DNA of 64,000 bases from Rubrivivax sp. (GTDB lineage Bacteria > Pseudomonadota > Gammaproteobacteria > Burkholderiales > Burkholderiaceae): assembly GCA_016790225.1 (NCBI GenBank), contig JAEUOZ010000061.1, positions 1-64,000 on the forward strand, in the 5' to 3' direction. A program made the position numbers and the translations under genes. Positions 366-59,572 of the stretch are shown piece by piece. Each line of letters begins with the position of its first letter. The stretch's first letter is position 1. Below the pieces are notes generated by a model. It was not told the DNA's origin. It saw only the letters and a list, made by a program, of their open reading frames with translations, and made no database searches.

Positions 366-596
366 GCCCCTTCAACGCATGCCGCATGCCACTGGGCATC
401 AGGATCTACCCGGTTCTGCCGCGCAGACTCCTAGCGGACAAGCCCTTGGTCGAGGGCGAAGGCCTGTCGCCGCGCGCGCGGCGCGAGCTGCTGGGCGACA
501 GCCAGCTCTTGCTGCCGTGTGCGCTGCCGCCATGGACGCCGGCATTCGCGGTAGCTAGCATTGGTAGGCATCATCCACGCCGGAGGCCCCATCGTC

Positions 597-881
597 ATGG
601 ACACCGCCCGATTGTTCCAGTCCGGCCGCAGCCAGGCCGTCCGGCTGCCCAAGCAGTTCCGCTTCGCGGGCACCGAAGTGGCTGTGCGGCACTTCGGCAA
701 CGGCGTGCTGCTGCTGCCGCTGGACGACCCCTGGCAGACGCTCGAAGACGGCCTGGCCGCCTTCGAGCCCGGCTTCACGCTGCAGCGCGAACAGCCTGCC
801 GTACAGGCCCGCCCGGCCATCGCCGCCGCACCCGGGCCGGCGCGCAAGGCGGCAAAGCCCGCCAAGGCGCGGCGACCATGA
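597..881 (+). CDS. vapB: VapB-type antitoxin (AbrB/MazE fold)
   Basis: 94-residue protein beginning MDTARLFQSGRSQAVRLP, the swapped-hairpin AbrB DNA-binding pattern of VapB antitoxins. Antitoxins of this kind bind and neutralise the PIN-domain toxin and repress their own operon. The ATG at 597 is preceded by GGAGG at 582-586; an upstream in-frame TTG at 561 is less likely. It overlaps vapC by the four bases ATGA (878-881), so the two are translationally coupled. Odd point: residues after about 60 form an Ala/Pro/Lys-rich tail, making the protein longer than the roughly 75-80 residues I would expect. The 230 bases upstream hold no gene that I can support. Confidence 0.85.
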   Translation: MDTARLFQSGRSQAVRLPKQFRFAGTEVAVRHFGNGVLLLPLDDPWQTLEDGLAAFEPGFTLQREQPAVQARPAIAAAPGPARKAAKPAKARRP

Positions 882-1279
882 TGCTGCTGGACACCAGCAT
901 CTGCATCTACGTCATCAATGCCCGGCCGCCCGAGGTTCTGGCGCGCTTCCGGCAGCACCGGCTGGGTGAGATCGGCCTGAGCAGCGTGGTGGTGGCCGAA
1001 CTGGCCTGGGGCGTGGCCAAGAGCGGCTCGGCGCGCAACCGGCAGGCGCTGGAGATGTTCCTGGCGCCACTGGAGGTGCTGCCCTTCGACGAGGCTGCTG
1101 GCTGGACTTACGGGGCGTTGCGCGCCGAACTGGAGCGCCGTGGCACCCCCATCGGCGCGATGGCCATGATGATCGCCGCCCACGCGCTGAGCCTGAACGC
1201 CCCGCTCGTCACGCACAACACGCGCGAGTTCGCGCAGGTGCCCGGCCTGCACCTGGCCGACTGGGCCGCTGCGCCCTGA
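878..1279 (+). CDS. vapC: VapC-type PIN-domain toxin with a substituted active-site residue
   Basis: 133-residue PIN-domain protein. In this family four acidic or polar residues hold metal for RNA cleavage, often of initiator tRNA. Visible here are D5 (LLDTS), E41 (VVAELAWG) and N114/E117 (THNTREF). At the third acidic position, where relatives read G-x-x-D-x-M-I-A-x-H-A, this protein reads GAMAMMIAAHA with Ala96 (codon GCC, 1163-1165). A single base change from GAC would explain it. The toxin may therefore be inactive or weakened, while the antitoxin gene is intact. Start chosen at 878 because it overlaps the vapB stop; a second ATG follows at 881. Confidence 0.85.
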   Translation: MMLLDTSICIYVINARPPEVLARFRQHRLGEIGLSSVVVAELAWGVAKSGSARNRQALEMFLAPLEVLPFDEAAGWTYGALRAELERRGTPIGAMAMMIAAHALSLNAPLVTHNTREFAQVPGLHLADWAAAP

Positions 1280-2100: not shown

Positions 2101-3219
2101 TCACCAGCCCGCGGGCAGGATCTCGTTCATCGCGACCACGCGGCCGAGCTCGATGCTGCGGTGCGCTGCCAGCCCCGTGGCCACGGCACGCAGGCCCTCT
2201 TCCAGCGGGATCTCCGCCGGCAGCCCTTCGCGGACCGCACGCGCAAAGCGCTCGTGTTCGACGTAGCTGGCGCCGAAGTGCTGGCCGAGATACTTGATGT
2301 TGGTGTCGCGCACCTGGCGCACGGCCACGCCGCGGCCGGTGCCGGAAGGCTGGCCCCAGGTCTCGCGCTTGCCCCAGTCCTCGCGGCGGCCCACGCGCAG
2401 CACGCCCGAAGGCAGCAGCGATTCGATCTTGCCTTCGCTGCCGACGATGGTGACGTGTTCGTTGTCCAGCGAGTTCTCGGCATACATGCACAGATCCAGC
2501 AGCGCACGCGCGCCGCTGGGATATTCGACGACGACGTAGGCGCTGTCCAGGATGTCGGGGCGGCGGCCGTCGTAGCTTTCGTCGAGGTGGTTGACGCGCT
2601 GCCCGCCGCTGGCAAAGACGCGCAGCGGCTGCTCCTTCAGGATCAGGTCCATGAGGTTGAAGTAGTGGCAGCACTTCTCGACCAGGGTGCCGCCGGTGTT
2701 GGCGCTGAAGCGGTTCCAGTCGCCCACCTTGGGATAGAAGGGCTCGCGGTGCTCGCGGATGGCCACCTGGTGCACGGTCCCCAGTGCGCCTTCGTGCGTG
2801 AGGCGTATGGCCTCGGCCACGGGCGGCATGTAGCGGTATTCCTGCGCCACCCAGACGATCCTGCCCTTCGCGTTTCGCGCCTTCTCTCGCTCGACCAGAT
2901 CGATGCCATCCTCGATGCGGGTGACCAGCGGCTTCTCGACGAGGATGTGCAGATCGGTGGCCAGCGCATCGCGCATGATGGCCACGTGCGTGAAGTTGGG
3001 CGAGGCGATGATGACGGCGTCGCACAGGCCGCTGCCCAGCAGATCCTGGTGCTGCTCGAAGAGGCGGGGCTTCCAGCCATCGACCAGGGCCGCCGCCGCC
3101 GCGCGGCTGGGCTCGTGCGGATCAGCGATGGCGGTCACGACCGCTCCGCCCATCGCATAGAGGTTGAGCATGTGTTCGCGGCCCATGCTGCCGCAGCCGA
3201 TGATGCCGTAGCGGATCAT
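2101..3219 (-). CDS. Gfo/Idh/MocA-family oxidoreductase
   Basis: 372 residues. The N-terminal Rossmann motif is GIIGCGSMGREH, followed by the diagnostic EKPLV (in LVEKPLVTRIED) and a C-terminal alpha/beta domain with a KCCHYFNLMDLI segment. Family members are NAD(P)-dependent sugar or inositol dehydrogenases. A strong AGGAGA site lies just upstream of the ATG at 3219. It sits between the ABC importer genes and the SDR, all on the minus strand, so it probably acts on the same sugar. Its 5' flank is occupied by two structured repeat elements, which separate it from the permease gene by about 400 bases. Substrate unknown. Confidence 0.88.
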   Translation of the reverse strand: MIRYGIIGCGSMGREHMLNLYAMGGAVVTAIADPHEPSRAAAAALVDGWKPRLFEQHQDLLGSGLCDAVIIASPNFTHVAIMRDALATDLHILVEKPLVTRIEDGIDLVEREKARNAKGRIVWVAQEYRYMPPVAEAIRLTHEGALGTVHQVAIREHREPFYPKVGDWNRFSANTGGTLVEKCCHYFNLMDLILKEQPLRVFASGGQRVNHLDESYDGRRPDILDSAYVVVEYPSGARALLDLCMYAENSLDNEHVTIVGSEGKIESLLPSGVLRVGRREDWGKRETWGQPSGTGRGVAVRQVRDTNIKYLGQHFGASYVEHERFARAVREGLPAEIPLEEGLRAVATGLAAHRSIELGRVVAMNEILPAGW

Positions 3220-3281
3220 TAGTCTCTCCTTTTCAATGCCCTGAGTCGCCTGGCTGGAGACCCACTCCAGCTCTTGCGCAA

Positions 3282-3391
3282 GCGGCGGCCAAACGGGTAG
3301 GGGGTTCCGCTCATGTCCTCCTTGTTACCGCCTTCGGCCGTAACAATTCCCCCCTTTACTTCGCTACACCCCCTACCCGTTTGGCCGCCGC
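3282..3391 (-). repeat. Structured inverted-repeat element, copy 1 (minus orientation)
   Basis: Perfect 24-bp inverted repeat (3282-3305 with 3368-3391) enclosing 62 bases. On the minus strand the interior reads AGCGAAGTAAAGG, a G run, then an inner hairpin (TGTTAC at 3323-3328 with GTAACA at 3340-3345), then AGGAGGACATGAGCG. The same unpaired core flanks a different inner hairpin in copy 2. It lies in the 407-base gap between the permease and Gfo/Idh/MocA genes and is read in its own sense orientation by that operon's transcript. I do not recognise a named family. It could be a structured RNA or a mobile hairpin element of MITE or REP type. Confidence 0.8.
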
Positions 3392-3461
3392 CGGAACCGG
3401 CACGGCGCTCGAAGAGAGGGAACACAGTGACTTCAAGTGTTCGACTGCTACTCCGTTGCCA

Positions 3462-3566
3462 GGCCGCGGACATGGGGTGACCCTCGCAGCGAAGTAAAGG
3501 GGGAATGGCCGGCCGCAGGCCGGACAGGAGGACATGAGCGAAGAGGGTCACCCCGTGGCCGCGGCC
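3462..3566 (+). repeat. Structured inverted-repeat element, copy 2 (plus orientation)
   Basis: Inverted repeat of 24 bp (3462-3485 with 3543-3566) with one A-G mismatch and one T-G wobble, enclosing 57 bases. The interior on the plus strand carries the copy 1 core, AGCGAAGTAAAGGGGGAAT and AGGAGGACATGAGCG. Between them is an inner hairpin of unrelated sequence (GGCC-rich, about 3506-3526). Outer stem length is identical to copy 1 although the stem sequences differ. The two copies point away from each other, separated by 70 bases (3392-3461) in which I see no gene. Together they fill most of the 3220-3626 intergenic gap. Confidence 0.8.
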
Positions 3567-3626
3567 CCGCGAGGCGCAGATCAGAGACGCCACACAAGCC
3601 AAGCCGCATCACTGACGAGGAACAAC

Positions 3627-4502
3627 TCACCCCTTCAACCCACCCTGCGTCAGCCCCCCCACCACACGCTCCTGGAACACCGCGATCAACACCGCAATCG
3701 GCACGATCGCGACGATCAGCGCTGCCGAGATGATGGGCCACGGAAACGTGAACTCGCCTTGATACAGCGTGATCCCCACCGGCACCGTGCGCATCGAGGC
3801 CGAGGAATTCAGTGACAGCGCCAGCAGAAACTCATCCCATGCGTTCACGAAGGCCAGGATGCCGGCCGTGAAGACACCTGGCGCCGCCAGCGGCACCACC
3901 ACGCGCCACAGCGCGCCCAGCCGCGTGCAGCCGTCGATCATGGCCGCGTTCTCCAGGTCCTTGGGGATGCTCTGGAAGAAGCTCACCAGCACCAGCGTGC
4001 ACACCGGCAGATTCAGCACCGTGTAGGGCAGCACCAGCGCCGTGTAGGTGTTCAGCAGCCCCAGCGCGCGCATGGTCTCGAAGATCGGCACCAGCAGCGT
4101 CACCAGCGGGAACATGCTGGAGGCCACGATGCAGGTCAGGATCAGCTGGCGGCGCTTCAGGTTCAGGCGCGCGATGGCATAGGCGGCCAGCGCCGCGACG
4201 AAGAGCGACACGATCGTGGAGACCACGGCCACCATGAAGCTGTTGCCCAGATACAGCAGCAGCGGCTGATCCTGGAAGGCCTGCACATAGTTGGCCATCG
4301 TCGGGTTGTGCGGCAGGTAGGTGATGGGCTTGCTCACCAGCTCGGCCTCGGTCTTCAGCGAGGTCAGCAGGATCCACACGGCCGGAAAGAAGCCGTTGAC
4401 CACCACGATGGCGGCGGCGATGAAGATCAGCACCCGGCCTTGCAGGCCCGGAGCGCCCGGGATGGCAGGCGCGGGGGCCTGGGTGGTGGCGGTTGCGGTC
4501 AT
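3627..4502 (-). CDS. ABC sugar transporter permease, MalG-like (CUT1)
   Basis: 291-residue inner-membrane protein with about six hydrophobic segments. The EAA loop near the C-terminal third reads ENAAMIDGCTRLGALWRVVVPLAAPG and contacts the ATPase. The sequence ends RVVGGLTQGGLKG, typical of MalG/UgpE-type carbohydrate permeases. The start at 4500-4502 overlaps the stop of the upstream permease by ATGA (4499-4502), indicating coupled translation. It partners the other permease, the receptor at 5481-6746 and the ATPase at 6778-7857. The N-terminal 20 residues are Ala/Pro/Thr-rich, as is common in this group. Confidence 0.9.
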   Translation of the reverse strand: MTATATTQAPAPAIPGAPGLQGRVLIFIAAAIVVVNGFFPAVWILLTSLKTEAELVSKPITYLPHNPTMANYVQAFQDQPLLLYLGNSFMVAVVSTIVSLFVAALAAYAIARLNLKRRQLILTCIVASSMFPLVTLLVPIFETMRALGLLNTYTALVLPYTVLNLPVCTLVLVSFFQSIPKDLENAAMIDGCTRLGALWRVVVPLAAPGVFTAGILAFVNAWDEFLLALSLNSSASMRTVPVGITLYQGEFTFPWPIISAALIVAIVPIAVLIAVFQERVVGGLTQGGLKG

Positions 4503-5480: not shown

Positions 5481-6746
5481 TCAGCGCATCACGCGGCGCA
5501 GGCGGTTCTCGATCTCGTCCACGCCTTCCTGCGGCGTCTTGGTCCGGGCCAGGATCGCGCTGGTGGTCGTGCGGATGGTGTCGCTGACCTCGCCATAGCG
5601 CTCGCTCATCGGGCGGCTGCGTCCGGCAGTCACCACCGAAGCGGCATCCTTGAACCAGGGCACGGCCCTCACCACGTCAGCGTCGGTGTAGACGTTGGGG
5701 TAGGTCGGCAGCAGTGAACCTTCCACCGCCAGGAACTTGCTGGCCGCCGGGCTGCTCATGAAGCGCACCAGCTTGGCCGATTCGGCCTTGCTCTTGCTGA
5801 AGGCGCTGACCGCCCACTGCCAGCCGCCCACGCAGGTGGCGCTGCGGCCACCCGGCATGGCCGGCAGCGGCATCACGCCGACCTTGCCCTGCACCGTGGA
5901 ATCCTTGTCATCCTTGAAGCGGTCCCAGGCGAAGCCCCAGTTGATCGCGAAGACCACCTGCCCGGCCTTGAACTCGTTCACGGTATCGGGCGTGCGGACC
6001 TCGGCCACGTTGCGCTTGATCACGCCCTGATCGACCATCGTCAGCCAGGTCTGCAGGCCGCGCACCGCCGCCGGCTTGTCCAGCGTCATCTTGCCCGCGG
6101 CATCGTTGAAGTCCTTGCCCTGGCCCCAGTAGGGCAGCAGGAAGGTGCAGACCGCGCCTTCGATTGGCGCGCCCTGGATGCTCAGGCCCTGCAGGTTGGG
6201 GTTGCCCTCGGCCTGCTGGATCCTGCGCGCCGCGGCGGCGAGTTCGTCCCAGGTCTTGGGCTCGGCGACCTTGTGCTTCTCCAGCAGGTCCTTGCGGTAG
6301 TACATGAACATCGCATCGGCAAAGGCCGGCATCGCGGCGATCTTGCCGTCGATCACGTTGGCCTGGCCGTAGACCGGCAGGAAGGGCTTCTTGATGTCCG
6401 CCGGGTTCATGTTGTAGTACGCGTTCAGCGGCTCGATCCAGCCGGCCGAGAGGTACTGGGCCGGGTTCACGATGTCAATCATGAACACGTCGATGGCCGA
6501 ATCCTTGGCGTTCAGCACCGTGCTCAGGTACTGGCGCTGAAGTTCGCTGGTGGCGCCGCCGGTCTCGATGTCGATCTTCACGCCGGGGTTGGCGGCCTGG
6601 TACTGATCGAACAGCTTGCGCATCAGATCCGGGCGCTGGTTGGCGCCGCCCGAGAACACGCGCAGCGTGGTCGTCTGGGCGATGGCACTGGTACCCACCA
6701 GGCCGGCCAGCAGCGCGATCGTGGGAATGAGGTGGCGTCGTTGCAT
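5481..6746 (-). CDS. ABC sugar transporter periplasmic solute-binding protein (CUT1)
   Basis: 421-residue secreted receptor. The signal peptide is MQRRHLIPTIALLAGLVGTSAIAQ, cleaved after about residue 23. The mature protein begins TTLRVFSGGANQRPDLMRKL, and the GQVVFAINWGFAWDRFK and GGWQWAVSAFSKS segments match extracellular sugar-binding proteins of family 1. The start at 6744-6746 was preferred to a more upstream ATG because it begins a clean signal peptide and has a GGAGAG site. It delivers sugar to the two permeases encoded next. The ATPase gene ends 31 bases upstream. Confidence 0.9.
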   Translation of the reverse strand: MQRRHLIPTIALLAGLVGTSAIAQTTTLRVFSGGANQRPDLMRKLFDQYQAANPGVKIDIETGGATSELQRQYLSTVLNAKDSAIDVFMIDIVNPAQYLSAGWIEPLNAYYNMNPADIKKPFLPVYGQANVIDGKIAAMPAFADAMFMYYRKDLLEKHKVAEPKTWDELAAAARRIQQAEGNPNLQGLSIQGAPIEGAVCTFLLPYWGQGKDFNDAAGKMTLDKPAAVRGLQTWLTMVDQGVIKRNVAEVRTPDTVNEFKAGQVVFAINWGFAWDRFKDDKDSTVQGKVGVMPLPAMPGGRSATCVGGWQWAVSAFSKSKAESAKLVRFMSSPAASKFLAVEGSLLPTYPNVYTDADVVRAVPWFKDAASVVTAGRSRPMSERYGEVSDTIRTTTSAILARTKTPQEGVDEIENRLRRVMR

Positions 6747-6777
6747 CTGGGTCTCTCCTTCTTGACGGACTCGGGGT

Positions 6778-7857
<1,080 letters not shown>

Positions 7858-59495: not shown

Positions 59496-59572
59496 TGGTA
59501 GGCCGTGCTGGACTTGAACCAGCGACCAAAGGATTATGAGTCCTCTGCTCTGACCAACTGAGCTAACGGCCC
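59496..59572 (-). tRNA. tRNA with anticodon CAU, probably tRNA-Ile2
   Basis: On the minus strand the cloverleaf opens GGGCCGTTAGCTCAG, has anticodon loop CTCATAA within a stem AGGA/TCCT, TGGTTCAAGTCCAGC in the T arm, and closes ACGGCCTA followed by an encoded CCA (59496-59498). The acceptor stem has a G-U first pair. CAU anticodons occur in initiator Met, elongator Met and the lysidine-modified tRNA-Ile2. The TTAGCTCAG, GTCGCTGG and loop sequences are closest to tRNA-Ile2. The identity cannot be settled without a model comparison. Confidence 0.88.

Follow-up and report, generated by a model that had tools for sequence, protein, structure and literature searches.

RESULTS

Two facing units in a sugar transport operon

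The window, by which we mean the whole 64-kb stretch of DNA analyzed, carries two units, facing each other, of a palindromic repeat scattered between genes, which we read as a REP/BIME-like miniature element acting as folded single-stranded DNA, with a probability of roughly 0.57. Comparison of the copies established the architecture, the stem covariation, the choice of strand, and the site polymorphism described below. The hairpins look like unusually large ones of the single-stranded-DNA kind, either parasitic or regulatory.

The first unit lies on the minus strand at positions 3281 to 3392 (80.7 bits with covariance model R1). Its outer stem comprises 24 bp with 100% complementarity between positions 3368 to 3391, the 5' arm on the unit's own strand, and positions 3282 to 3305, the 3' arm. 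Within this stem are the 5' core segment AGCGAAGTAAAGGGGG (3350 to 3365, minus strand), an inner hairpin seen in the RNA fold (3322 to 3346, minus strand; GAA triloop at 3333 to 3335), and the 3' core segment AGGAGGACATGAGCG (3308 to 3322, minus strand). The second unit lies on the plus strand at positions 3461 to 3567 (92.7 bits). The arms of its 24-bp outer stem, 3462 to 3485 on the 5' side and 3543 to 3566 on the 3' side, are 92% complementary, and they enclose the 5' core segment (3488 to 3504, plus strand), an inner hairpin with a GCA triloop at 3515 to 3517 in both DNA and RNA folds (3506 to 3526, plus strand), and the 3' core segment (3526 to 3540, plus strand). The two variable core letters that we call X and Y are G3501 and A3529 in this copy. 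A linker of 68 nt (3393 to 3460), measured between the model matches, separates the two units.

Both units folded better than any of 200 shuffled sequences, the plus copy as DNA (z = -7.42) and as RNA (z = -7.12) and the minus copy as RNA (z = -9.79). The segments AGCGAAGTAAAGG and AGGAGGACATGAGCG co-occurred exactly twice in the window, compared with a mean of 0.00 in 100 shuffles. At E <= 1, the covariance model, which was built from 86 copies including the plus copy of the window, matched exactly these two units. The preliminary description had proposed two facing structured elements with common cores and unrelated stem sequences, placed within a sugar operon with one sense and one antisense to it. 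All of this was borne out, the operon by reading frames and Pfam matches; the location was right as well, and the limits first given were slightly short of those reported here.

The operon is a sugar transport operon on the minus strand, with a solute-binding protein and permeases upstream of the units and an oxidoreductase downstream. The downstream flank is a GFO/IDH/MocA oxidoreductase gene (2101 to 3219, minus strand; reading frame and Pfam). The upstream flank is a predicted second transporter permease, called from its reading frame (3627 to 4500, minus strand; stop at 3627, with an approximate start near 4500). Elsewhere in the window, we noted a cobalamin riboswitch (Rfam RF00174; 44773 to 45033, plus strand; 46.9 bits), a tRNA (59499 to 59572, minus strand), and a likely toxin-antitoxin pair (561 to 1279, plus strand) composed of a MazE-type antitoxin (Pfam) followed by a PIN-like toxin frame recognized by eye.

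A patchy family in Burkholderiales

A pattern scan in which each species was represented by one genome found at least 120 loci, mostly in Variovorax, Hydrogenophaga, Rhodoferax, Rubrivivax, and other Burkholderiales or Rhodocyclales. Among the matches listed, a few were labeled only "Pseudomonadota" or "beta proteobacterium," one came from a Stagnimonas metagenome-assembled genome (MAG), and one came from a Clostridia MAG. The covariance model at E <= 0.001 matched 119 of the 120 listed loci, a figure that is not independent since many of these loci trained the model. The Clostridia locus (L039) had no covariance-model match and was set aside as a chance pattern match. In the family of Variovorax paradoxus NBRC 15149, the strict pattern occurred in 34 of 150 genomes (this strain counted) with up to 37 copies, and the reversed pattern, used as a control, gave 1 match. 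The strict pattern undercounts, as one genome (G125) had no copies by pattern and four by model. At the class level, 4 of 369 genomes, V. paradoxus NBRC 15149 included, had model matches at E <= 1e-5 when the best 10 candidates per genome were scored. The copies form a patchy family of dispersed repeats in Burkholderiales.

By a crude home-made gene finder, 126 of 129 sites did not lie within a predicted gene. With the same gene finder, 34 of 126 sites were flanked by convergent genes and 17 by divergent genes, versus 61 and 63 of 295 in the background, a difference that is suggestive only. Among neighbors within 260 nt of each other (280 units), 90 of 94 were head to head, 2 were tail to tail, and 2 were in tandem. 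Facing pairs accounted for 180 of the 280 units; further partners were found solely by the model or lay past contig ends. The linker measured 40 to 57 nt in 80 of 90 facing pairs, by a foot definition that differs slightly from the one that gives 68 nt in the window. Partners in Variovorax belong, as judged by eye, to two different stem types per pair.

The element had no match in Rfam at the gathering score, in agreement with the preliminary description, which had recognized no family. Seven sub-threshold matches at relaxed Rfam thresholds and two weak BLAST matches of the core to phages were taken as chance, and a match to a Streptomyces plasmid had hairpin-like sequence alone in common. The exact G-type core pattern gave 0 matches in viral contigs. 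No known insertion sequence, which had been raised as the possible sole setting of the core, was seen around it in an unsystematic look. The titles and abstracts in our limited literature listing held no description of the element.

Architecture and covariation

Each unit consists of an outer stem of about 25 bp of free sequence, a purine-rich core, and a capped inner hairpin, which together span 106 model positions. The outer stem is narrow in length, with 97 of 120 stems ending at index 24 to 27. Inside it follow a G.A mismatch (109 of 120), a covarying C-G/G-C pair, an A.G mismatch (116 of 120), and then a short helix. The strands of this helix vary in concert: GCGAA/TTCGC, GCGAA/TGAGC with tandem G.A, GTGAA/..GAAC, GCGAC/GTCGC, and GCGGC/GCCGC. 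In a sister lineage, GCGAA faces TTCGC instead of TGAGC, and these plain pairs back the earlier suggestion that AGCGAA opposite TGAGCG forms tandem G.A beside G-C pairs. A short form that lacks the GCGAA/TTCGC helix and has an intact purine core was observed at L064 (1393 to 1480), L088 (933 to 1020), and L099 (6589 to 6676), in each case head to head with a full-length unit.

The core reads RTMAAGGXGGA on the 5' side and GGYGGACA on the 3' side, a constancy that is due in part to searches that demand the core. In line with the tandem G.A suggestion, the R and the two 3' letters are associated in 166 of 169 units. For X/Y, the 280 units held A/G in 222, G/A in 42, A/A in 9, C/G in 4, and A/C, G/T, and A/T in 1 each. 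G/G was found in 0 of the 280 units, with about 35 expected for independent letters, which indicates that X and Y probably pair. The four GG runs around the hairpin would also allow a two-layer quadruplex.

Removal of near-identical arms reduced 169 units to 120, of which 86 were used for alignment. Standard pairs made up 90.6% of the 2666 pair cells in these copies, compared with 62.3% after shuffling. The covariation score was 0.739, versus 0.186 in shuffles and at most 0.157 when slid. Two-sided changes (732 versus 215.5) and pair types (108 versus 85.9) were likewise in excess, and for all four measures 0 of 500 shuffles reached the observed value. Counted by pairs, 25 of 31 had a two-sided change, which was not above the shuffles (mean, 23.6; 68 of 500). 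The strong covariation across 86 copies supports selection on the fold, which had initially been proposed from the two copies of the window.

The strand that folds

We counted mismatch types on the core-bearing strand, leaving out units in which fewer than 17 of 23 cells were paired, a filter that favors paired stems. On this strand, G.T outnumbered A.C by 600 to 36 (280 units), and purine-purine mismatches exceeded pyrimidine ones by 188 to 42. The G.T:A.C counts were 133:3 in sense units (66 units), 184:11 in antisense units (78 units), and 167:14 in other contexts (79 units), as assigned by the crude gene finder, with 57 of the 280 units omitted for lack of usable flanking genes. Folding appears to be required of the core-bearing strand, whatever the reading direction of its neighbors. 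If read-through RNA were under selection, antisense copies would become rich in A.C; they are rich in G.T instead, which favors single-stranded DNA. This comparison excludes read-through transcripts, and transcripts from promoters in the linker lie outside its reach. G.T pairs make up 9% of stem cells, and such pairs are better tolerated by RNA than by DNA. Together with conceivable linker promoters, this share calls for caution on the DNA reading.

Among 158 distinct inner-hairpin loops, 88 were GNA triloops, 15 were GNNA (5 of these GNRA), and 1 was TTCG. GNA and GNNA caps are described in PMC4686876 as forming extraordinarily stable DNA minihairpins, and the converse argument, from UUCG loops to RNA, was applied to the STAXI motif in PMC2864571. 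The GNA-rich caps and the strand test together favor single-stranded DNA over read-through RNA. The folded molecule first put forward as "RNA or single-stranded DNA" is thus supported, with the balance on the side of DNA.

Filled, partly deleted, and empty sites

At one Variovorax site, 7 of 23 loci were filled, including one (L224) in which the second unit has decayed. In fifteen loci the same next gene followed after only a short gap of about 10 to 80 nt; L241 has a different gene in that place. On the tree of the flanks, from which L242 (short contig) and L243 (diverged match) were left out, occupancy required four changes on the best tree, two of them forced by well-supported branches. Occupancy was somewhat clustered on this tree, with 21 of 500 shuffles as low. 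A second Variovorax site, which from the protein names we take to be the sucC-sucD gap, was full in 5 of 19 loci, partly deleted in 3, and empty in 11. No clean target duplication was seen at the filled Variovorax sites, which carry extra, poorly conserved flanks; by eye, the pairs there end in TTCAGGGCG/CGCCCTGAA.

The gap between permease and oxidoreductase genes was compared in the 16 of 25 loci with both flanking genes; the permease was not found in the other 9. The C terminus of the permease is 89 to 97% identical across these 16 orthologous loci. The gap is 407 nt in the window and 11 to 48 nt (stop codon counted) in 9 of the 16, and in four it exceeds 1200 nt and, by eye, has another gene inside. 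The remaining three gaps are 133 to 181 nt long; by eye, L318, L320, and L329 hold other, unrelated palindromic repeats. It is as if this gap were a preferred landing place. The element opens up operons, presumably sucCD and here a sugar transporter, so the expression of downstream genes may change.

At four orthologous sites, 373 pair cells had changed, of which 278 still pair (127 by two-sided change) and 95 are unpaired, and inner hairpins differed in 54 of 71 comparisons; these counts are pairwise and not independent. Other copies keep pairing in their stems. Copies with paired stems have been retained at orthologous sites, so the unit may be ancient and maintained, as opposed to actively mobile. 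Deletion derivatives were also observed. L254 and L065 (about 3300 to 3350) retain element ends alone or a core-less stem closed on itself, like remnants of slippage on a palindrome.

Search for a mobilizing partner

PF01797 was present in 10 of 14 element-bearing genomes and in 9 of 14 genomes free of the strict pattern, in which diverged copies may be present. The surroundings of 38 Y1_Tnp loci, out to about 1.5 kb, contained no unit. By these genome counts and loci, RAYT/Y1_Tnp genes have no association with the units and were rejected as the mobilizer. An all-against-all comparison of open reading frames (ORFs) within 500 bp of units yielded no recurrent transposase-like partner in the 25 largest clusters. 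The biggest cluster (84 loci) seems to consist of spuriously translated repeats, and the next (10 loci) resembles ABC-transporter ATPases.

DISCUSSION

The element resembles REP/BIME/REPIN sequences in being a scattered extragenic palindrome that occurs in head-to-head dimers, a group thought to act as folded single-stranded DNA. According to the sections of PMC3733652 and PMC2817692 on these repeats, most REP/BIME dimers are head to head and many combine unlike units, and a REP is a palindrome of 20 to 40 bp with a stem of 5 to 13 bp and an unpaired GTAG/CGTC tag (PMC3733652). The element shares the dispersed, intergenic, and mainly head-to-head arrangement. Instead of a hairpin of 20 to 40 nt, it has a structure of about 106 nt in which a 25-bp stem encloses an invariant purine internal loop, and its copies are fewer. 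No strongly conserved tetranucleotide, such as GTAG or CGTC, was present at either foot of 120 units; the best foot motif was a weak TGCC, at 41 to 42% per position in all units and 44 to 53% in G-type units. Regarding the possibility raised at the outset that an Rfam or REP/MITE entry might already cover the element, the Rfam part is answered by the lack of a match, and the REP part is qualified, since the element likely lives as REPs do and lacks their sequence features.

TIRtrons offer another likeness, in that their TIRs flank RAYT-like genes and are longer, inverted, partly self-complementary, and also dimeric, as outlined in the part of PMC3733652 that treats them. They differ in their consensus GGGGWSAS and in their linkage to such genes, no unit being near the 38 Y1_Tnp genes. 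A likeness of GGGGGACA to this consensus was dropped, as in L182 the consensus fits a separate GGGGTCAGGTC repeat. This locus carries a separate GGGTCAGGTCT repeat (about 1410, 2369, and 2556) near a Y1_Tnp gene, which we take to fit GGGGWSAS. Judged by its row in Table 1 of PMC2864571 alone, the Burkholderiales-1 candidate motif of 2010 (Burkholderiales; RNA rating "?"; no Rfam accession in that table) could be identical to the element.

The possibility that the copies are structured RNA was considered rather unlikely. In that case the linker would hold divergent promoters, and two outward transcripts would each fold one unit that binds protein or stabilizes mRNA. The strand-specific fold with its many G.U-type pairs, an invariant internal loop that resembles the binding pocket of an RNA, and 5' ends that both face the linker are consistent with this explanation. 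A scan of positions 3200 to 3650 for promoters and terminators found none, the promoters sought being of the sigma-70-like type; linkers compared by eye across genera had no common sequence; the caps are GNA rather than GNRA or UUCG; and antisense copies have the same strand preference, all of which argue against RNA. A classical REPIN family moved by a RAYT (Y1) transposase would account for the facing pairs of unlike units, the intergenic scatter, and the empty sites, it agrees with the REP features in the cited parts of PMC3733652 and PMC2817692, and Y1_Tnp genes were found in 8 of 12 and 10 of 14 host genomes. In REPIN systems the repeat flanks its cognate Y1 transposase gene, whereas the Y1_Tnp loci here had no adjacent unit. 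Genomes with 14 and 9 pattern copies lacked a Y1_Tnp match, and the foot tag and unit size differ as described above. We think this explanation improbable.

Template-switch correction of quasi-palindromes during replication could keep the arms complementary with no selection on the fold. Inner hairpins and stems do change in concert at orthologous sites, and partial deletions are typical of palindromes. By itself, this process does not account for the strand asymmetry of 600:36, the constancy of the core, the X/Y rule, the set length of the stem, or the GNA caps, and we consider it very improbable as the full account. The strand asymmetry argues against template switching as the sole cause; template switching may still help to spread changes between arms. 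Integron attC sites also keep their structure while the sequence drifts, with one strand that folds. The element shares the drifting sequence under a kept structure and the single folding strand, and it differs in its facing pairs and conserved internal loop and in that no cassette arrays were seen, attC boxes having been sought by eye.

Under the preferred reading of a REP/BIME-like element acting as folded single-stranded DNA, a strand that has turned single, during replication or repair or as a transposition intermediate, would fold, and an enzyme or host protein would read the invariant purine core rather than the stem sequence. The facing pair would give each strand one properly oriented hairpin, as in REP doublets, and the pair might be copied or moved as a unit into intergenic gaps. 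A more specific version, which we put forward tentatively, is a distinct mobile or maintained single-stranded-DNA element handled by a non-Y1 enzyme. Its signal would be a three-dimensional purine loop, set in stems whose sequence changes freely, in which GGXGG faces GGYGG with X.Y paired, possibly as a two-layer G-quadruplex between two duplexes. To our knowledge, few natural single-stranded-DNA folds have a conserved nonhelical core. With many covarying copies, much of the element's pairing can be read from sequence, and it makes a clear case for asking what moves or keeps extragenic palindromes without a linked RAYT and why such palindromes occur as two unlike units facing each other.

Genes that lie between facing units set far apart were considered as possible autonomous copies and rejected, as the contents of L053 and L055 were each seen once. 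L055 has, by eye, a small membrane-protein-like frame between its units. In L053, a TumE toxin/HVO_A0114-type antitoxin pair (6754 to 7397; Pfam) lies between facing units about 790 nt apart and adjoins an apparent truncated core (about 6729 to 6740). This toxin-antitoxin pair could be cargo or a later insertion.
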